In this document: positions 2,118 through 64,000 of the stretch, one piece after another
How the letters are laid out: each line of letters opens with the position of its first letter
Position numbering within the stretch: the first letter of the stretch is position 1
DNA from: Brachionus manjavacas
Taxonomy: Eukaryota > Rotifera > Eurotatoria > Ploima > Brachionidae
NCBI GenBank assembly: GCA_019054805.1
Contig: JAHQIY010000004.1
Span: 434,001 to 498,000 of the forward strand
Direction: 5' to 3'
Length of the DNA: 64,000 nt
Notes under the pieces: model-generated
Seen by the model: the letters and a program-made list of their open reading frames with translations, nothing else
Database searches by the model: none
What the model was told of the DNA's origin: nothing
Position numbers and translations under genes: made by a program

Positions 2118-2634
2118 TTTAATATTCTAATTTTTACTGAAATTTTCTTTTTGCCGTCAAAAATTATATTTTGTTATTATTTTTTGAATTATTTGGTCGC
2201 ACTAAATTTTTTTTTTGTCATTCAAAAATAATTTTTTTGTCTAAATTAGATACAATTAGTCACTATTTAAAATTATTTTGTCAGTCGAAAAACATTTTTT
2301 TTTGACAGTAAGAAAAATTAAAAGCCAAAAATAATCATTAAAAAGACTTAATCAATTAGTCAATTTTGGATATTTATTTTTTTGAAAATAAACAAAAAAT
2401 GAAAAAGTGGCTTTTAAAGTTTATCAAAAATCGAATTTTTTCCTTTACTGTTCCACACAATATAAAATTGGTTACTCTTTTAAAAGAATTTATTTTGGTA
2501 GAATCAATATTTTTCTAAAAAAGATTTTCATTTAATTACTTTGGTAAATTTTTTAAATTCACAATTTAGCCCAGAAAAATCAAGTTTAAAATGTTTCAAA
2601 ACAATTTTAATTTAATTAATAAATAGACAAAAAT

Positions 2635-5600
2635 TTATGATCGGTTTTTTGTCAGTTTTCCTTTAGTAAAATCAAGTATTTGGTTGATATCTAGACACTC
2701 TCCGAATTGAATGCCGTATCCATGCTTAAGACCATTGGGATTCGACGGACTAACAAAATCCAAATCCGGCTCTTTTCTCAAACATTTATCAATATCTACT
2801 CCACTGAAAAAAGCAACTGACTTGAAAAAAAATTTATTTATTTTTTTTAATTTTTTTCAAATTTTTATACCATAGGTAAATCGTCAAAGCCCATTTTGTA
2901 AGAAAAAATTGCTCTAGTGTACAAATTGGTCAATTGGAGTGCTAGAGCAGCTCTGTGTCTTAATCAAAATAAAGTCAGGTTTTAATTTTTTGTTGTTGAA
3001 CTTTTACTTGTCATTCTCTTTGACAATGTATCTAATTTCGTCATGAATGCTGATTGAGAATCTAGCTTGTATGTCATACTTTTCAATGAGCCAATTTATG
3101 CACACCAGCATTATATGAAGATAATCGACTGCAGAGCTCTGCACAACCCAATTTATCCTCGAAGTAATAAACTAAAAAAAATTAAAAAAAATTTTTTTTA
3201 TTTTTTTTAATTTACATTTTTGTCAACCACATCAGGCTCAAGAGCTTGGCTGATTCTTGCTTCCAAGACGGGCGTTTTGGGCTTTTCGGAGACTGCGATT
3301 TCTTCCAATTTATTGAACATGTCCGATTCCGTGCCACCAGACCATTTCCCGGCATTTACATCTTCATCTGGATCATTGGACATCTCTTTCAGCTGCTTTC
3401 TCAGCATTTCATCTTGATATTTTTTATTGTGTTTTTTGCGATTTCCCTTTGTTTCACTGTAAAGTTTAGAGGCTTTCATATGAGCTTCTTTTTCGCTCAT
3501 GGTCGGATTAAACTGCATCAAGAGCTTTTGAGTAAAATTTCTTCCCGCTCCGTAAATTCGACCATAATTAAAAACTTTTGCTTGATCTCGACTGATTCCA
3601 ATGATTGAAGCAGTCTTGCTATGCATATCGGTGCCATCTGATTTTTTACCCTGCAAATTCATCTTAAAATAAAATTTTCTTTTAAAAAAATTTTTTAAAA
3701 TTCATAAATTTGTATTATTTTTTTTTTTTGGTTTTACTTAGAAAGTTATGGTGGTATACAAACTGAAGAGATTGATCAAAAAATATTATTTTAAAAAAAA
3801 TAAAATAAATTTAAATGAATAATATTACATTAAAAATTTAATCTTTGGAATATTTTGGTCACGTAAATTTTTTTTTTGGTCATATAAAAATAAGAAAAAT
3901 TTAGATTAATTTCTATTTTTTATTTAAAAAAAAGATTGGTCACACATCCAGCAAGAAAAAAAAAAACTTAAATAATATGAAAGAGAAAAAGAAAGATAAT
4001 TAATTCTTTTAAATTAAAATTTATATTCAATCGCTGAAAAACCTGGTCTAGTCGGTGAACCACAGTTTACCTATTATGCGAAAAATTCTTGTTCGCAGAT
4101 TTCTGATCTAGTTCGCCTAATTTTTTTGTTCACGTAAAGGTGAGCCAAAATAGAACAAATTTCAAATTATATGAACAAATTGAATAAAACTATTTAACAA
4201 ATGAGTGCCTAATTCTAGTAACTGATAAAAAAATAAATAATTGAAGTTAAATTTTTTTTTTTTTTAATTTGAAGGAGCTTTAGAAATAGCATTTGCTCTG
4301 ATCCGGTTGACCCGGTATTACTTTTTCAATAATCCCAAACACCCAAATGGGCTCTCTACTTAAATATTTCCCTTTAAATATAAAAAATAAAAATTAAATA
4401 AAATTAAAATTAATTTTTAATTAATTATTGGGAAACATAGGTTCATCTAAAAATCGCAAAATATTACCTTCTCTGCCCAACTTCAAAATTTTAATTTAAT
4501 TGTTTTTTTTATTCTATCTTATTTTTTAATTTTATATTTAGCTTTTTTCTAAATAGATGAAAAAAACTTAAGACAGGTGAGCTAAAATCTGAAAACTCTA
4601 TATTAATTTCTTAATTTTTTCTTAATTCGAGCTTAATTTCCGGCACTGTAGAAAAATTATTTTTTAAAAATTTATTCACTTGTATTCTGATTTTTTTTTC
4701 CAAAGCAACATCATTTAATTATATCTAATTAAGGATATTGTATCAATTGCAGACTTGTTTTTAAGTCACAAGTCTTAAGTCAAGTCAATGACAAAAAATT
4801 TTTTTTTCGTTTTTAAGTCAAGTCAATGATTTAATAAATCCATATTTGATACCAATAAAGTAGTTGCTTCCAAATTCCTGGATATAAGAGACAATGTTGA
4901 TCTATGCGCTCTGTAAATGTAACCAGATTTAGAAAATAATTCTTTCATTTGGTCCTGATGAAGCAGGTATTGATAAAAATTTTTGTGCAAGTCAAGACTT
5001 TGACTTAAATTTTTGTGACTTATAAACAAGTCTGATCAATTAATTTAATAATTAATGTGAATTTTATTTATTTATTTAATTAAAAATTATAGTTTTAAGA
5101 ATTTTAATTTTTTTTCCAAATTAACAATGTCTAATTTTATAGCATTTATAGCATTAAGTGGACTCAAGATTGGCTTCTTCTCTTCAACACATCAAAATGT
5201 GTGGTTATGCATTACGGTCATAAAAACAAAGAATTCACTTATTCTATTAATGGTAAACAGTTATCAACGTCTGAAACCGAAAGAGATCTTGGAGTTATCT
5301 TCAATACAAATCTCAAATGGAAAAACCAAGTAATAGAGGCTACAAACAAAGCAAATCAAATGTTGGGTCGCATCAGGAAATCATTCGCTCGTTTTGATTG
5401 TAAGTTATTTAGATCATTGTATTTAACTTTTGTTCGTCCTCTTTTGGAATTTGCTGTGCCTGTATGGTCTCCATTTCTTAAGTCGGATTGTGAGAATCTT
5501 GAGAGGATTCAACGCAGAGCTACGAAATTTGTTTCTTCAATTAGAAACAAACCGTATGAAAGCAGATTGAAGGCTTTAAACATTCCAAATCTGGTGGAAA

Positions 5601-8600
5601 GAAGAAAAAGAGGTGATCTAATTCAATTATACAAGTTCATGCATGGAATAGAATTGGTTGAAAAAAGCAACAATTTTAATGTCACCAAAATCCAAGGAAG
5701 AGGTCACTGCTTCAAATATCACAAAGAAATTTCGAGGCTCCAACATAGAGATTTGACCAAGGCAAATAAATTCTAGGATTTTCCATAAAACCCGAATTGT
5801 TACATTAACAGAGCTAATTCTAAACTTTTAGAAAAAAATTATTCAATTTTTACATTTTTCAGCTTAAATTATTATTTTGTACCGAATTTCACAAAAAAAT
5901 TTTTTAACAATATTTCAAAATAAGTATTATCAATCAAATCAGATTCTCAAAGAACAATACTTCTTTTCTGAATAATGGAAATTTAAAAACAAGTTAAATA
6001 TGCTGAAAATATTTGGATGTTGAGTAACTGCTCTTGTCTACACTGCTAAAACATTCTAGCCAAATAATCGTTCGGTTCATGCGAAAATTGTCATTCAGAA
6101 ATGAAATTAACAACTCGGAAACGTAACCAATATGGAAATGCATTGACTACTTTGCGGTGTAAAATTATAAATGCCAAAAGTATCGTAGCATTTGCAATAG
6201 TTATTTCTTTTTGAGTTTGTTTATCAATGAAATAATTAAACTATGGGCTTTTAAGATTTCAATTGAAAATTCTATTGCGTTCCTTAATTTTGATTTATAT
6301 AATGTGCGTTAAATGACCAGCTACAGAGCCTCAATAATGCTTCCAATCCAGTGAATGTTCTGGCTTTAGACTTGGAGAAAAAATCTTATGAAATTGTACC
6401 AGTTTCGGATGGAGCAAATGCTAAAGTTAATGATGCCAAAAGCACATAAAAACAAATAATTATTTTTTTCAAAAAACAAAATCTAAAAAAAGAAAAGCCG
6501 GTGCTTGGCATTAAATTAATCAAAATAATAAACATTTTTTGTTAAATTAAAAAAAAAATAAAAAACCTTATTTCATCATTTTTTTAAGATTCTAATCTAT
6601 TAAGTTTTGATCATCTGGTCATGATCATGAACTTCAAGTTGCCAGTATTAAAACAAAAAAAAAGTATTATAATAGTAATTACTTAATTATTAATAGCTGA
6701 TTATTTTATAAGATAAAATTAATAAATTTTTAAAATTCTTTTGAATTTTATATTGATACTAATGTCACTGTTAAAACAAGTAGAGGCAGAGGCGTCATAA
6801 TTACTGAATAAGAAAAAATTTCCTTGTTTCCAATAGATTTAAAAAATGTTAATATTAAAATAATTGCTGAACTTTCCTTTAATTTTTTTTTCTAAAATAA
6901 ACTCTGTTATAATAAACGATTTCATTTTTATTATTTATTACGATGATTTTATATAGGTGTATTAGCTATTTGAGTCTTACTATTTTAAATCTAGCTAATT
7001 TGAATCGTCCTCTAAATATATTATTAAACTGTCTTAAACATTCGTCAATAGAACCTATTCCTGTCTTTATAGTAAAAAACAAATCACAAAATAAATTTTA
7101 AAAGAGACTTCTTTAGTTGTGTTTTAATTTGCAACAAGGGTTTTAGAATAAACAATTATTTTATATTATACAATTTAATTAATAAATTTAAATTTATTTC
7201 TAAAAAGTGTAGAATAAAAAATTCAAAATTAAAAATTTTTCTGTCTTAAAATAAAAATAGATAAGAAAAAATTATTTTTTCCATATTAGATCTACTTTGG
7301 AAGACCTTTGTAGAGGTGTTATAAAAATGTCCAATCTTATTCAAAAAAAAAGAAAGTGTATTTCACTTGAAGCAAAAGTTGAAATAATAAAAAAACGTTG
7401 CTAACAAAAAATCGCTACTTCAATTCTCGCAAAAGAGTATAGCGTCAACACATCGACCATTTCGACAATTCTCTCGTCTAAAGAAAAAATTTTAGAGCAC
7501 TTTGAGAAGAACTTGTGCGGTACAGAAAAAAAAAGAATCAAATTATCGAGTTTCGATGATGTCGATAAATCGCACAGATATTGCGAGAGAAAAACTAAAT
7601 GCAATCGAGTATGGTTCAGAAATGCCCAAAATAGATATTCTCTCGGCAATTTATAAAATCAAATGTGCATGGGATGATGTTTCGGCATTAACAATCCAAA
7701 GATGTTTTCGAAAAGCTGGTTTCAAGGGCGATTTTTTATTTGGTGATTCATTGAGTGGATGTGAAGAAAACGACGAATTTAATGATATATCTTCGTTTGA
7801 AAAAAAGTTAAACTTTGACAAATATGCTAATGTTTCAATCGACTCAAATTTTCCTGCACGCGGCTTATTATCAGATGTTGAGTACAGTTAACAATACAGC
7901 ACCAAGTGATGACAGTGATTCTGATGTCGAAGAAATCGAAAAACCTAAAAAACCTGTTATAAGCTCAAAAGAAGCTTTCGATAAAATTAATGATTTAAAA
8001 GAATTTTTTTTGAATAAAAACCAAGATTTCTCAAAAATAGTTGATTTTTTGTTTAATATTGAAAATGTTGTGATTGAAACAAACATCTATTAAAGATTTT
8101 GTAAAAAAACAATAATTTTGTATTTTTTTTTCCTTTTTTATTTATTTTTTTACCATTAAACATTTTGAAAAAAAAAAATTTTTTGCCCATCTTTTTCAAT
8201 GCAATTTCGATATAACGAGCAACGAAATTTTCGCCCAACTTGCTCGTTATATCGAGGATTGACTGTATATATCTTTATTTATTTAATTGATTATTAAAAA
8301 AATAGATATATATATATATTAAAAGTATAAAAAAAAAAAAAAATTTTAGTAATTAAATAGAGTTATTGATTTAATAGTCATTTGAAAAAATTTAACAATG
8401 TTCAAATGTTTTTTCTCCGCTTTTTGACTTGGCCATTGGTTCAATACGGTTATTATTGTTCCTTAAAATATTATCCAAATTTCGAGTTATTTTTCTTTAA
8501 TTTTTCTTTTAGATTTAGCGGAGAATTGAAAAATAATAGACATTTATAAGAGAAAGTTAACATTCTTTCAAAAATTCGATGTTGAAATGAATAAAGACCA

Positions 8601-54485: not shown

Positions 54486-56716
54486 CAGAGTTGTTTTTAA
54501 GTCACAAGTCTTATTTAAGTCAAGTCAATGACTATAATTTTTTTTCATTGGTTATTACTTACTGCTCCTTTTTTTAATTTTCAAAAAAAAGCTCTTTAAA
54601 AAAAAAGGTCTTTTATTGGTAAAATATTATTTAAAGCTCTTTTTAAATTTATAAAAATAATCAATGATTTTTTTTTTTGGATTTTTTAAAGAATCATATT
54701 TGAATTCTTTAATTAATTAAAGAATCATTTTGGAAATAATCAAAAGAGATAGGCTAACTTATGAACAAAATTTAGTAGATAAAGCTAAGAAGAATCTAAA
54801 ATTATTATACAAATATCTAAATGATCAACAAGTAATCAGAGAATCAATCAAAGCATTAAAGAAGTCAAACAATGAATTAACGCAAGAACCGAAAGAGATA
54901 TCAAATCTACTAAATAAATGTTTTCAAGATGTTTTTGTTATTCAACAAGATGGGGAGCTTCCACCTTTTGGAGCTGAACTAAATGAAAACTGTTCAGAAT
55001 ATATTGAAATTGAACCAAATGATATTAGTTATGAAGTGGTTTAAAAAAAATTACAAGACCTTAATCAAAATAAATCATGTGGTGTAGACAAGCTTCATCC
55101 GCTATTGCTAAAAAACTGTGCAGAAGCCTTTACTGTTCCTTTAACTTTAATTTTCAGAAAGTCTTTATCTAATATTCAGCTTCCAAAACAATTCAGATCA
55201 GCAAATATTACACCATTGTTTAAATAAGGTGATAAATCAACGGCCAGCAATTATCATCCCGTGTCTTTAAATTCAATTCCATGCAAAATAATGGAAAGCA
55301 TAATAAGAACCAAAATGGAAGACTATCTTTATAAGAACAATATTATATCTAAAGAACAGCATGGATTTGTCAAGAAAAAGTCATGTACATCTAATCTTAT
55401 GGAAACTCTAGATTTCATCTCAATGAGTCAAGACAAAAGTATTCCTGTTGATGTAATTCTGCTAGATTTTGCGAAAGCATTTGATACTATTCCGCACAGA
55501 CGACTAATAGCTAAATTGAAAGCGTATGGCTTTGATGGTCTGACACTAAAATGGATTGAAGCTTTCTTGAAAAATAATAGACAACGAGTTGTTCAAGGTG
55601 AAATTTTGTCGGATTGGGTTGAGATTTTTAGCGGTGTACCACAAGGATCAGTGATTGGTCCACTTTTGTTCGTTTTGTATATCAATGATCTACCAAAAGG
55701 AATAGAGAATATTGTCAAAATGTATGCAGATGATACAAAAATATTCTCGCAAACGGTTTCAGAAATATGCGCAGTGAAACTTCAATCAGATTTAAATTTA
55801 ATTTTCAAGTGGACTTAAGATTGGCTTCTTCCCTTCAACACATCAAAATGTGTGGTTATGCATTACGGTCATAAAAACAAAGAATTCACTTATTTTATTA
55901 ATGGTAAACAGTTATCAACGTCTGAAACCGAAAGAGATCTTGGAGTTATCTTCAATACAAATCTCAAATGGAAAAACCAAGTAATAGAGGCTACAAACAA
56001 AGCAAATCAAATGTTGGGTCGCATCAGGAAATCATTCGCTCGTTTTGATTGTAAGTTATTTAGATCATTGTATTTAACTTTTGTTCGTCCTCTTTTGGAA
56101 TTTGCTGTGCCTGTATGGTCTCCATTTCTTAAGTCGGATTGTGAGAATCTTGAGAGGATTCAACGCAGAGCTACGAAATTTGTTTCTTCAATTAAAAACA
56201 AACCGTATGAAAGCAGATTGAAGGCTTTAAACATTCCAAATCTGGTGGAAAGAAGAAAAAGAGGTGATCTAATTCAATTATACAAGTTCATGCATGGAAT
56301 AGAATTGGTTGAAAAAAGCAACAATTTTAATGTCACCAAAATCCAAGGAAGAGGTCACTGCTTCAAATATCATAAAGAAATTTCGAGGCTCCAACATAGA
56401 GATATCTTTTTTTTTCAACAGAACCGCTAACATATGGAACTCACTGCCAAATCAATTAGTTGAAGCTCCTAATGTTAACAGCTTTAAAGCAGGCATTGAT
56501 TGCTGGATGAGCAGCAATCAATCACATCAGCTGTCATAGTGTGCCTTATCAGCACACTCGCTGGCTAGCCATCTACAGTCAAAACTACTACTACTACTAC
56601 TATATTTATTTTTAGTTTTAAAATCAGAAAATTAATTGACTTGACTTAATTTCACTAAATAAAGAAAAAAAAGATTTGTGACTTAGACTTAAAACTGTGA
56701 CTTAAAAACAAGACTG
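54486..56716. mobile_element. hAT-like MITE split by a CR1-like LINE
   Basis: The left end CAGAGTTGTTTTTAAGTCAC and the right end, ending GTGACTTAAAAACAAGACTG, match the ends of the 4750-5034 element, with AAGTCAAGTCA subterminal units on both sides. The about 1.9-kb CR1 copy (54721-56595) lies between. Flanks ATTTTTCC and ATTTTATC are only partly alike. The surrounding LINE resumes after 56716. Confidence 0.65.
54721..56595 (+). mobile_element. CR1-like LINE, near-complete RT ORF
   Basis: Frame 1 (54730-55044) is the pre-RT helical part (LLYKYLNDQQVIRESIKALK). The RT frame (55261-55818) has EQHGFVKKKSCTSNLMETLD, DVILLDFAKAFDTIPHRRLI, FSGVPQGSVIGPLLFVLYIN and MYADDTKIF, all expected catalytic motifs. 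The C-terminal frame (55852-56430) continues as in 5201-5776, then WNSLPNQLVEAPNVNSFKAG in a third frame. It ends with an ACT trinucleotide tail near 56595. Only a few breaks: stops near 55044, 55227 and 55818 and a frameshift near 56405. The youngest-looking LINE here, 5' truncated (no endonuclease). Confidence 0.9.
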
Positions 56717-57200: not shown

Positions 57201-57439
57201 GATAAACATTTTTTTTGATTATTTGTATATTCTTTTATCTTATTATTAAAGCCTTAAAATTATCTATTTTACTTAGATTTTCCATTTTTTACCTTTAATA
57301 TCGTTTGTTGTATAATAATCTCTTTTAAAATTATCGATAGACCACATTATTTGACAGAAAAAATAAAAAATTTAACTTATCATGGATGCTTGAATTCTTT
57401 AAGTTTTTTTATTATAGAATCAGATCTTGAATAAAATTC

Positions 57440-58020
57440 ATTTTCATCTTCGGCTATTTTTACGCTCTTTATTCTTCCCAAAAATTTCACTGACAAGGTT
57501 TTCTTGGTCTTTTTTTTCCACTTTAAATTCATTTAAGACCCTTATCACAATTTTTATCAAATGATTGCAACATAACATAAAACTTGAATTTTTAAAAAAA
57601 ATTTTTAAATGCAGACCGTATAGATTGATCATCATCGGTGATAAAACACCTAATTTTCTCTAGCTTTTTTTCATTTAACAAGTCATATTTTTTTAGCTCC
57701 ATTGCGAATAATAAATAAGCTTGCTTGTCTTGATGCAAAAGTACCATGATTGGACCAATAAATACTGGATGAGAGTCATTTGTTGCCTTGCACAGTGACA
57801 AATTCTTATATGATAAATTAGTCACAAAATATTTTCCAATATGTAGTGTCAATGTTCACCATACTGAAATTCCGATCAGAAATGCAAAATCTTTTTTAAT
57901 GGCAATTACTATGACAGTAATATTTGAAATCAACTCACATTTAAATTTTACTTTCTCTCTGTTTTTTAAGGCATCAACAAATTCATCATGTGTTTTTATA
58001 TTATTGCTATTGGTCTGTAA
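57440..58020 (-). pseudogene. MULE (Mutator-like) transposase remnant
   Basis: Minus-strand pieces: MVNIDTTYW (first catalytic Asp region), YFVTNLSYKNLSLCKATNDS, HPVFIGPIMVLLHQDKQAYL, IRCFITDDDQSIRSAFKNFF (second acidic motif) and SSFMLCCNHLIKIV (zinc-like C..H). The order D, HPVFIGPxxxH, ITDxxxAIRxAF, C..H is that of the MULE transposase domain. Two frameshifts split it (57852-57592 and 57635-57444 are the longest frames). No flanking inverted ends were recognised. Confidence 0.75.
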
Positions 58021-58030
58021 ATATTTATGA

Positions 58031-58189
58031 GATGTAAGCTGGCTTCTAGATCGAGCTAGAGTTGACAGAAATCCTGTTGCCGAAACGAAACTTACAAACC
58101 CACAAAGTACCTTAAGAAGCGGCTCAATGAAGCTCGCTCAACTGGAACCCGGAGAAATCAAAGTGTGCGAAAGCCAGTTGACCGGCTGA
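58031..58189 (+). CDS. Unrecognised 52-codon open frame in GC-rich island
   Basis: Open from the base after a TGA to a TGA at 58187: DVSWLLDRARVDRNPVAETK, LRSGSMKLAQLEPGEIKVCE. Base composition is near half GC, unlike the surrounding DNA but like 58440-59330 downstream. No domain is recognised. It may be the upstream part of the same element or gene as the RING cassette, separated by about 290 bp of AT-rich sequence. Confidence 0.25.
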   Translation, partial: DVSWLLDRARVDRNPVAETKLTNPQSTLRSGSMKLAQLEPGEIKVCESQLTG

Positions 58190-58482
58190 ACTTTGATACG
58201 ATCAAATGTTAAGCCAATGTACATTTACAGCATCGATAATCTTAACTCCTTTTACTTTTCCTTCTATTATTTTTTCTAAAATCAAATTAATCAGCCTAAA
58301 TAGCCCAAATCTAACTCTTTCACTCACTTAATAGAGTTTAATTGGCTCTAGTCAGTGCCCAAAAATCTAAATCTATGTCAACCCCAATTCGATGCAAAGT
58401 ACATTTGCAATTGAAATAAATATTCAAAATTAGTATTCAAAGCGAATACTAATTGAGGAGCTCAATAGGGATTCGGGAAGGT

Positions 58483-58634
58483 AAGGTCTAATAAGAACCG
58501 TTGTACTTGGTCCGTGCCGCAACTTCCATAAGACGAACTTCGCATTTGTACGGTACGAAAACCCGGCCATCTATCAGGAAGCCGTCGAATTTCTGAACGG
58601 GCCAGGTACCGAAATTTGGTTTTGCGCTGAATAA
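58483..58634 (+). pseudogene. RRM-like C-terminal half
   Basis: The frame reads IRTVVLGPCRNFHK then TNFAFVRYENPAIYQEAVEF and LNG before a TAA at 58632. NFAFVRY resembles RNP1 of an RNA recognition motif, and AIYQEAVEFLNG resembles its second helix. The RNP2 half was not found upstream (stop at 58480). The frame overlaps the coiled-coil frame (open from 58597), a +1 shift away. Confidence 0.4.
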
Positions 58635-59311
58635 GAAACCATTTCAAACCCACCACGTGCTACAAGACACGCCAGCAACACTACGATTCGACAATCTCGA
58701 ACAAATAGAGCAGCTCATACGCGAGCTAATGGCTCAACACCGAGGACAATTAACCGAGCTAGACCGCCTCAAGGAATCGAACCGCCAATTAGAGAAGCAG
58801 GTACAAGCGTCACAACAGCAGACGACGCTGCAACAACAAGAACTAGGAGCGGCGAGGGAAGCAAACCAAGTGTTGGTCAACCAGGTTCAAGGACTGACTG
58901 AACAGGTGGAGAGTCTCCAAGAGATTACCCAGCTGCTTCTTGAACCTAAAGCTGGGGCTCCCAGCCGCGAGTCAACACCCACCTTAGACGCAGTAGTCAC
59001 TCGAACATGGATACCGCTGCCGATCAGGCAACAAATGGGGCAAGCCCAGAATGAGAAGTCACGGGAAGCCGAGTTTATCCCGATAGCAGAGCTCAGTCCT
59101 CTACCAAAAGCGAAAAGTCATAACTTCTCGGCTGGCAGTTGCGTGGTATGCATGGATGATTTTAGCAATGTTATTAAGCGTATTTAGCACGCAGTGTGGA
59201 CACCTCTTCTGCGAGCCCTGCATGAGGCGATGGGTTAAAGCTGAACAATGCCGTTGCCCACAATGTCCCGCGCGGTTGGGTCGAAATTACTACAGCCGAC
59301 TCCACTACTAA
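58597..59311 (+). CDS. Coiled-coil plus C3HC4 RING protein, frame-broken
   Basis: First frame (58597-59187): about 130 residues of glutamine-rich coiled coil (LEQIEQLIRELMAQHRGQLT, QQQTTLQQQELGAAREANQV, VESLQEITQLLLEP), then a Pro/Ser linker and CVVCMDDFSN, the first two RING cysteines. The next frame (+1) supplies STQCGHLFCEPCMRRW and CRCPQCPARLG, completing C-x2-C...C-x-H-x2-C-x2-C...C-x2-C, and stops at 59311. So one +1 shift splits the RING. Such proteins are usually E3 ubiquitin ligases; no substrate can be inferred. GC content and codon use differ sharply from all neighbours. It could be an accessory ORF of a retroelement, a recent transfer, or a decayed host gene. The start is not fixed: no ATG precedes the coiled coil (first ATG about 58728). 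Confidence 0.6.
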
Positions 59312-59409
59312 CTTCATAGAGCTATTCATTTTCTTTTTTTTTGTAGTTGTCGCCAATGTTTTTCTTTTTGTTTTTGCCTGTTTTTTTGGCACCTGAGCCA
59401 CTCTTTACT

Positions 59410-59639
59410 GAGGGGAAGGTGTGTTGAGACTCAAAGCTTGACACTACAAACGCCTCATTTCTCTAGTCCCTATTTCTTTATTTTGTTAACGCATGTTTTC
59501 AATTCATCTTCTAAAGCACATGTTCTAGCTACTTTATAAACCCCTATCTCTTTTGTTATAATTTTTGTGGATTCCAATAAACTATTAACTTAATTTTACA
59601 TTTGTTCCATCCTAGTGTTCCCACCCTAAAGTCACTTCC
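59410..59639 (+). mobile_element. Candidate LTR with polypurine tract
   Basis: GAGGGGAAGG (59410-59419) is a typical polypurine tract, directly followed by TGTGTTGAGACTCAAAGCTT. A TATA-like TTTATAAACC (about 59532) and an AATAAA (about 59576) follow in LTR-like order. A CACTTCCA near 59639 is a possible CA terminus. No second LTR, primer-binding site or pol gene is in the window. The alternative is an ordinary 3' untranslated region with a polyadenylation signal. Confidence 0.35.
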
Positions 59640-59643
59640 AAGT

Positions 59644-60175
59644 TTAGACTTTACAATTGTATAATCTTAATAAACTATTCGTTCCAGGAACTTTTCTAAA
59701 CAAACCAATTTTGATTACAGAATTTTTTAAAGAGGCCTTTAACTCAAATGTAAGTTGATAAAATTTTTTCTTGAGATTTTGGCAGCGAGTTTTTTGAAAG
59801 TTTCTTCTTACTTCCCTGCGTTCTTTTATCAGAATAACAATGTTCGGGGGAAGACTGGTTTTGTAGATTTTCTGAGAAAAATAAGGAATGCTTTTATGAT
59901 AAGCAGGAATGATTTTTTCTGTAATTTTATCATCATGTTGATCTATAGTGATGGAACTTTCAGGGAAAATAACTATTTGAGAATTTAAAATCTCGCTGAA
60001 TAATTGCCAGTTTGCTTTCTTATAGTTAAACTTTTTAGCTGCTGATTTATTTTCTAATTGATAGCCCATAGAAATCGATGCTTCGATTGGGAAATGGTCA
60101 CTAGTCATGTCTTGACTATTTAGGACACAAAAGTCGGTAATTTTTCCAATTAATGAAGATGAAACTAAAAAAGAT
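59644..60175 (-). mobile_element. LINE endonuclease C-terminus and linker
   Basis: The minus-strand frame 60108-59644 starts MTSDHFPIEASISMGYQL; SDHFPI is the last catalytic motif of the LINE endonuclease. FNYKKANWQLFSEILNS, KIYKTSLPPNIVILIKERRE and RRNFQKTRCQNLKKKFYQL follow. The RT is absent. Same linker type as 53300-53050. Confidence 0.8.
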
Positions 60176-62820: not shown

Positions 62821-63851
62821 TCAAAGCACACTTTTCGACAAAGACTTGCTGAGTATTTTTTTTCTATTTACACTTTTTTTTTTGCACGTCAATCTAAAAC
62901 ACAGGTCATAGAACGAGTTTCGAAAGTTCTCGTTATAAAATGCGTATAGACACGGGTTTATGACCGGTGTCAAATAGGACAGAGTGTGCGCTATCAATTT
63001 AAACAATGACAAATAAGGAAACAAATACGGATACTCGCTTAGGCTAGGCTTGAAAATAATAAATAAATGAGTAGGAAGCCAACAAATGCCAAAATTAAGA
63101 GTCACGACTGCCACCATGGTCGTGACTTTTTTTTTCCTGTTCTCCGACTTTTTAGATTTCCTGGTCTTTTTGGTGTCGACCCGCACTGGCTCTGCTGCTC
63201 TCAGCTCCTTGCTATGACTGGCGCGATTGATCAGTGTTTTGGTGCGCTCATCCTTGTTGAACTTGGCCAGTCGGCGCTGATTCTTGGACAAATGAGACAA
63301 TAGACGGGTGTACGAAAGGATGATTATCAACAAGGGGATGACATAGGTGGTGCCTATTGAGATTACATGCGAAATGCTGATGTAGAAAACCAGTATCGAA
63401 TAGGTGTCTTTGTCATATGAGCACACCTTGAATGTTTCATTGTTTTCAAAGACAACTTTGGTGACAGTGTAGTAGATCAGGTCGGGGCTGGCGATTAGAA
63501 ATGAGAGGAGCCAAATACCGATTGTAATAAGCAGCACAGTCTTTTGTCTTCTCTTAATGTTGGCCAAATGTTGGGTCATTGTCTTGTTTTTGATGATCAA
63601 ATTGCATCGATGTATTGTCATGGCAGTCAGTGTCAAACAGGTTGATTGGACACTTGCGTGTGACATAAAATGGTTTAATTTACAGAATGTGACACCGAAG
63701 AACCAGTTGTCGTACAAGTATATGTACATGGTGAACGGTATGCAAAAAATAACAAAAAGCATGTCGGTTATGGCCAAGTTAAATATGTAACAGTTGGTTA
63801 TATCATTTAGCTTTTTGTAAAAGATCGCTATGAATATAACAAGACCATTGC
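62821..63851 (-). CDS. Rhodopsin-family neuropeptide-type GPCR, 3' exon
   Basis: A plasma-membrane seven-helix receptor, probably peptide-activated. The exon starts at 63851 after an AG acceptor (phase leaves GC of a Gly codon) and encodes 342 residues to the stop at 62821; earlier exon(s) lie beyond the window. GNGLVIFIAIFY is the end of TM1, FNLAITDMLFVIFCIPFTMY TM2, a Trp-containing loop, TM3 with the disulphide Cys (FCKLNHFM), TM4 WLLSFLIASP, an ECL2 Cys, TM5 with IPLLIIILSY, a long basic third loop, TM6 CWLP and TM7 NPCLYAFYNENFRNSF. The overall pattern is closest to allatostatin-A/galanin/kisspeptin-like receptors, by eye only. The DRY motif after TM3 is HRC (IHRCNLI), with the central Arg kept. 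The tail is basic and serine-rich. Confidence 0.9.
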
Positions 63852-64000
63852 CTTCAAAAATGAAGAATTTTTTTTAATTGTGGACTTTAGATTTTATTAA
63901 AAATAATTAAAAAAATTTTAAAAAATTAATTTTTTTGATTTTTTTTAAATAATTAAATTATAAATTAAAAGAGGATTGCAATTAGTTTACCCAAAAAAAA
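63852..64000. other. Intron upstream of the GPCR exon
   Basis: AT-rich; contains the polypyrimidine-like stretch before the acceptor. No further exon in the window. Confidence 0.6.

Follow-up and report, generated by a model that had tools for sequence, protein, structure and literature searches.

Between positions 58082 and 59655 of the window lie, in order and on the plus strand, the end of a pol gene, a third open reading frame (ORF3) at the env position, a polypurine tract (PPT), and one LTR. The window is the whole stretch of DNA analysed, 64,000 nucleotides of contig C4 (434001-498000), and searches covered 114 Mb of the same genome, whose contigs are given C-numbers here. The arrangement almost certainly marks what is left, at the 3' side, of a defunct Ty3/gypsy LTR retrotransposon.

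The pol remnant (58082-58212) is the C-terminal tail of an integrase frame, running to its stop codon and 92% identical in DNA sequence to C1:375448-375794, a stretch in which a 319-aa frame carrying the domains Integrase_p58_C and SH3_Tf2-1 comes to its end. Since the copy starts only near the end of pol, at about 58082, its gag, most of its pol, and its 5' LTR are gone. Directly upstream, 57952-58080 is part of another repeat (94.6% identical over 129 bp to locus L013 on C22), and likeness to the C22 repeat stops where likeness to C1 starts, at 58082. A decayed minus-strand frame with FITDDDQSIRSAF, which we take to recall MULE-type transposases, occupies 57400-58080, adjoining the Ty3 remnant, and a related repeat is found at C22:781812. 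Elsewhere, the window carries fragments of reverse transcriptases of non-LTR retrotransposons (5135-5776 and 55228-56430, recognized by eye from the frames) and a neuropeptide-type GPCR (62821-63873), whose best solved matches are the kisspeptin and galanin receptors and which marks the DNA as animal.

An earlier note on this DNA had described a GC-rich island encoding, in successive frames, an RNP1-like motif, a coiled coil rich in Gln, and a RING of the C3HC4 type. All three are present, and they align in order with a single open frame of 285 aa on C1. The RRM remnant, with the RNP1-like TNFAFVRY, spans 58434-58640, as placed by alignment to C1 and C11 and by comparison of the RRM profile of its relatives with the PDB; the Gln/Glu-rich coiled coil spans 58650-58960, within an open frame at 58597-59187; and the RING and C-terminus, identified by alignment and by the RING match of C1, span 59130-59311 and are split by a frame change. 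The island is equally real: 58440-59330 is 49.9% GC, as against 27.6% for the window, and the richest of 1263 sliding 890-bp windows begins at 58451.

The nearest relative of the window copy is that on C1, which has the pol frame, an open ORF3, the PPT, and the LTR in one piece, while C11 has ORF3 in broken frames together with an LTR. The start codon and first RRM strand present in C1 are missing from the window copy, leaving its RRM incomplete, and its frame is broken twice at places where C1 and C11 are alike. Because other copies have one open frame, the two breaks seem to be changes peculiar to this defunct copy, and decay would be the simplest account of them. The window copy is absent from the two lists of ORF3 protein matches considered below; what links it to the family is that its DNA resembles that of C1 and C11.

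The PPT, GAGGGGAAGGTG, occupies 59410-59421 and is identical in C1 and absent in C11. The 3' LTR that follows (59422-59655, 234 bp, TGTTGAGAC...GACTTTACA) contains a TATA-like box at 59533-59539, similar in C6, C3, and C37 and altered in C1 and C11, and an AATAAA poly(A) signal at 59576-59581, present in five of six aligned LTRs and changed in C1. The polypurine tract, TATA-like box, and AATAAA of the earlier note are thus all found, within or before the repeated LTR. Its LTR-like sequence also proved to be a repeated LTR, with boundaries that had to be moved: the start, TGTTGAG at 59422, lies two bases inside the proposed TGTG, and the end is TTTACA at 59655, not 59640.

Repeated LTRs and related elements

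When the genome was searched at the DNA level with 58031-59640, 24 matches were obtained, one being the window, and the stretch from 59422 was found again on C1, C3, C6, C11, and C37 (matches of 86-99%), so that the LTR is multicopy rather than single-copy. Aligned with their flanks, all six LTRs begin TGTTRAG and end GACTTTACA. Beyond these ends the flanks of C3, C6, and C37 are unlike those of the window, and the PPT is common to C1 only. The copies on C6 and C37 are solo LTRs, bounded by 4-bp duplications (ATGT and GTTA, respectively), and the element on C24 has AAAC on both sides, its two LTRs being 96.9% identical over 228 bp. A 4-bp target duplication therefore accompanies all three copies in which both outer flanks were read; the window copy has no 5' end. 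The LTR on C3 is evidently a 5' LTR, as it is followed by the PBS-like TTTGGTGCCCAAC and a decayed gag-like leader. A PBS of the TGGTGCCCAA type comes after the LTR in C24, C3:1100595, and C7, and tracts related to the PPT of the window and C1 precede the LTRs of C24 and C13.

The junction of LTR and PBS, allowing up to one mismatch, occurs at 12 places in the genome and nowhere in a reversed control. Judged by eye, eight of these junctions are followed within 8 kb, on the same strand, by an ORF3 match from the C24 search described below; those without such an ORF3 are at C3:1100820, C10:769363, C12:1035028, and C13:402664.

The element on C24 has two LTRs and a PBS; its gag, which bears a CCHC motif, and its protease, reverse transcriptase, RNase H, and integrase were recognized by eye, the frames of pol being broken. 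After integrase comes an open frame of 365 aa with RRM, coiled coil, and RING, and then the PPT and 3' LTR. This gene order is repeated in C7, C13 (where pol was likewise read by eye, in broken frames), and C3:111838. Translated frames of the C3 (L062) and C7 (L060) elements show the Ty3 order PR-RT-RNaseH-INT by Pfam, with RVT_1, RT_RNaseH, Integrase_H2C2, and Integrase_p58_C above the cut-off in both; rve passes in C3 and narrowly misses in C7 (31.4 vs 32.6). Within an 8-kb stretch around the C3 element, no two LTRs forming a pair were seen. Taken over the family, then, there are repeated LTRs of the form TG...CA, a target duplication, a PBS and a PPT, and the PR-RT-RNaseH-INT order of Ty3/gypsy. 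The choice that the earlier note had left, between a retroelement with a RING accessory ORF and a transferred or decayed gene, falls to the first: the genome search it named uncovered both matching LTR copies and pol-encoding relatives. The copy in the window is decayed as well.

Two further observations concern these relatives. Three copies of ORF3 lie on one strand of C13 (376147-390021), about 6.3-6.7 kb apart, forming a tandem array whose members probably share LTRs. Also, the start of Gag (positions 2120-3073 of the reverse complement of L061, C13:375500-384499; also L035) is strongly hydrophobic and resembles a transmembrane (TM) segment, with Kyte-Doolittle values of 2.34 in C13 and 1.88 in C24. 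It may possibly be a membrane anchor of the particle.

Occurrence, domains, and divergence of ORF3

Copy after copy of the element carries ORF3, a gene made up of an RRM, a coiled coil, and a RING, and lacking any membrane-like segment. A protein search with the ORF3 of C24 gave at least 24 matches in the genome and one with that of C3 at least 35; the two lists overlap and some elements are counted more than once, so both figures are lower bounds. Integrase lies upstream of ORF3 at 14 of the 24 loci of the C24 list, and no integrase is nearby at the other 10. Approached from the other side, 68 of 165 integrase matches were compared with the places of ORF3. ORF3 is found no more than 5 kb downstream of 17 of the 21 integrases that are at least 60% identical to the query but of only three of the other 47. 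The four exceptions among the 21 are fragments of at most 121 codons; where the match reaches at least 200 codons as well as 60% identity, ORF3 follows in 12 of 12, a count that includes the query and three C13 copies that are nearly identical. The distance is less than 1 kb in these 12, save for 3.4 kb at C10:2621866. From these co-occurrences it follows that ORF3 marks one lineage of Ty3 elements. Distances between integrases and between ORF3s, calculated over integrase pieces of unequal extent, correlate over seven elements with r = 0.72 (as high in 213 of 5040 permutations); over the same unequal pieces, without C7, r is -0.29 (as high in 572 of 720 permutations).

The ORF3 of C1 matches PF13639 with 44.0 bits (cut-off 27.3), and Pfam RING cut-offs are passed by C7, C13, and C3a as well, but not by C24 or C12; the RING of the window is broken. 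From seven different elements one complete RING each was picked by hand, and the profile built on them finds RNF4 nearest among solved structures (1.5e-24 for a two-RING chain, from 1.7e-12 for single-RING chains) and also matches RING2, TRIM5, and others. Invariant in the seven are six zinc-ligand Cys, the Pro of CPxC, and an Arg after the last Cys. The Arg at this position stimulates ubiquitin transfer in E3 RINGs. In a wider set of 24 rows, 20 reach the Arg and 18 of these keep it, the exceptions being L049 and the window copy (CPQCP). Zinc ligands have been lost in some elements (the second Cys in C24, the His in C12) and are changed in C11:294995 and others; rows with a lost Cys are L037, L048, and L058, and those with a stop are L038, L042, and L043.

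RRM_1 reaches its Pfam cut-off in C1 only (22.2 bits vs 20.7), falling below it in C5 (20.5) and C35 (16.2), and for the four intact ORF3s of C24, C7, C13, and C3a Pfam lists no RRM family at E 0.1. A profile made from eight RRM regions matches PABP in the PDB at 6e-11, and PUB1 and PUF60 also. Alignments show the RRM region and the coiled coil kept across elements. By a home-made score, the heptad pattern of the coiled coil is moderate in the window (reached by 12 of 300 shuffles) and C1 (13 of 300) and clearer in C24 (0 of 300), C7 (1 of 300), and C3a (0 of 300); Pfam, given the coiled-coil frame of the window alone, returns sub-cut-off matches only, several of them to coiled-coil families. 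No TM-like stretch is present in the ORF3 of C24, C7, C3a, or C1, the best 19-residue Kyte-Doolittle mean being 1.53, and the threshold for such a segment is usually put near 1.6.

One variant, C3:113376 (L055, L057), differs from the other aligned elements in its longer coiled coil and gives a sub-cut-off Pfam match to the baculovirus RING family PF05290 (24.7 vs 33.1 bits). TRIM/RBCC ligases were considered as a model and rejected: their order is N-terminal RING, B-box, and coiled coil, while the RING of ORF3 is C-terminal and Pfam lists no B-box family at E 0.1. Relatives elsewhere were sought in a collection of viral contigs with the ORF3 of C7 (17 pattern matches, none confirmed) and in a collection of genome contigs with that of C1 (60 pattern matches, none confirmed), neither collection being well suited to finding an element of animals.

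ORF3 has probably been under selection, since dN/dS between divergent copies is below 1. Synonymous sites are mostly saturated between subfamilies; where dN/dS was measurable, it ranged from 0.18 to 0.70 among the pairs listed. The values are 0.26-0.27 for C7 and C13 against C3:750236 (intervals 0.17-0.43 and 0.18-0.38), 0.49 for C24 against C11:294995 (0.26-0.88), 0.62 for C1 against C11 (0.45-0.84), a weak 0.68 for C1 against the window (0.50-0.97), and 0.70 for C35 against C3:3091357 (0.44-0.99; 0.52-1.20 at an overlapping locus). C24 gives 0.18 against L048 and 0.26 against L053, both at a dS near 2 or more and thus nearly saturated. Near-identical copies (the C35 group and the group of C7, C13, and C10) have dN/dS of 0.58-2.13 with intervals spanning 1, as expected of recent neutral copies or of few changes.

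Possible roles of the ORF3 protein

The best explanation of the whole, with a probability of roughly three in four, is that the window holds the 3' remnant of a defunct Ty3/gypsy element whose ORF3 would code for an RNA-binding RING protein, its role being read from its parts. A tentative proposal, at odds somewhat below even, is that ORF3 encodes an RNA-binding RING-type E3 ubiquitin ligase. The protein would oligomerize through its coiled coil, the RRM would recruit it to the element's own RNA or Gag particle, and the RING would ubiquitinate something bound there, perhaps Gag (for assembly or release) or perhaps, to have it removed, an RNA-binding or restriction factor of the host. E3 activity is predicted from motifs, in particular the Arg after the last Cys. 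Rather more speculative is the wider notion that the lineage encodes an RNA-guided ubiquitin ligase, the RRM keeping the ligase on the element's RNA while the RING clears away or alters Gag or host silencing factors bound to RNA.

The protein would probably be expressed from a spliced or internally started mRNA, because in C1 and C13 some 330-370 bp lie between the pol stop and ORF3, which forms a frame of its own. A simple pyrimidine-tract rule applied to 10 loci found a splice acceptor before ORF3 in four, one site being common to L038 and L039 and the others lying elsewhere; none is consistent. Runs of about 20 or more A occur within about 80 bases before the start of ORF3 at four of 10 loci (L036, L038, L039, L055). 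They may be an A-rich leader or a trace of origin by retroposition.

The main rival to a ligase is unlikely but deserves attention. ORF3 might chiefly handle RNA, exporting or packaging unspliced genomic RNA, with the RING as a structural or dimerizing zinc module. Conservation of the RRM region and coiled coil across elements is what one would expect of such a factor, and there is a parallel in CERV of the worm element Cer1, a protein at the env position required for export of genomic RNA, according to the accessible part of its description (PMC10309623). A purely structural zinc module, however, would not need the Arg found after the last Cys in all seven aligned rows, and the best solved match is to an E3, RNF4. 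Neither does the position of ORF3 between pol and the 3' LTR, the point in favor of a degenerate or divergent envelope protein, make that idea other than very improbable, as a TM-like stretch is lacking in four elements and the domains are RRM and RING.

Perhaps, instead, ORF3 is a captured host gene, a passenger of no use to the element. The GC fraction gives a hint of separate origin: in each of six elements (C24, C13, C7, C3a, C1, and C35) it is higher in ORF3 (0.41-0.51) than in integrase (0.34-0.41). No constraint is seen among near-identical copies, moreover. Against this, elements whose ORF3s share only about 30% identity have the same architecture, the protein is still recognizable where synonymous sites are saturated, and dN/dS is clearly below 1 for several divergent pairs, so that a useless passenger is improbable. 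Least credible, with a chance close to nil, is a host RING gene, marred by assembly errors or containing the programmed frameshifts entertained in the earlier note, that happens to sit beside an unrelated LTR. Both frame breaks do go in the same direction. But the block of pol tail, ORF3, PPT, and LTR is found again on C1, and ORF3 with LTR on C11, and the ORF3s of C1, C7, C13:376147, and C24 read from RRM through coiled coil to RING in one frame, which gives programmed shifts no support.

Comparison with known systems

The closest solved relative of the RING by sequence, RNF4, carries SUMO-binding motifs and is not known to have an RRM. Retrotransposons are usually thought to borrow both RNA handling and ubiquitin from the host. 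A selected ORF joining an RNA-binding domain to a RING would offer a direct way of studying how LTR elements resist host pathways or turn them to use, and an RNA-guided ligase, if it is one, would be the LTR-element counterpart of viral ubiquitin hijacking.

In the open-access literature, at the level of titles and the beginnings of abstracts, no ORF of an LTR element was found to combine RRM and RING. The words RING, ubiquitin, and RRM do not occur in the main text of a paper on accessory domains (PMC6338049), nor does RING in a review of extra ORFs in plants (PMC7264820). An ORF after pol combining RRM, coiled coil, and RING is thus, provisionally, novel, being without a precedent found in the part of the open-access literature covered. 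RING-labelled cargo in gypsy elements does have precedent, because the giant planarian Ty3/gypsy element Burro carries domains linked to ubiquitin and apoptosis, one of them described, in the part of the report available, as AIR1 "with RING Zn-finger" (PMC6431247). There they belong to one giant polyprotein, along with MATH/TRAF, BIR, and ankyrin domains, whereas here RRM, coiled coil, and RING form a separate ORF after pol. CERV, from Cer1, resembles ORF3 in being a non-Env protein at the env position that acts on genomic RNA; the accessible text names neither RRM nor RING in it (PMC10309623).

The LTR elements of bdelloid rotifers, Vesta, Juno, and TelKA, according to the available text have additional, family-specific ORF3s between pol and the 3' LTR, often not env (PMC5408684). 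The placement is like that described here, but the contents differ: the bdelloid ORF3s are Env-like or encode a GDSL esterase or a DEDDy exonuclease, and RING, RRM, and zinc finger do not occur in the main text (PMC5408684). In env-bearing retroviruses and errantiviruses, the ORF after pol encodes a membrane glycoprotein, while ORF3 has a RING and an RRM and no TM-like stretch. With Ty3/gypsy (Metaviridae) at large, the element shares TG..CA LTR ends, a 4-bp target duplication, PBS, PPT, the CCHC motif of gag (seen by eye), and the order PR-RT-RH-INT. It differs in that an extra ORF3 with RRM, coiled coil, and RING replaces env, a position that can evidently take up unrelated functional modules.
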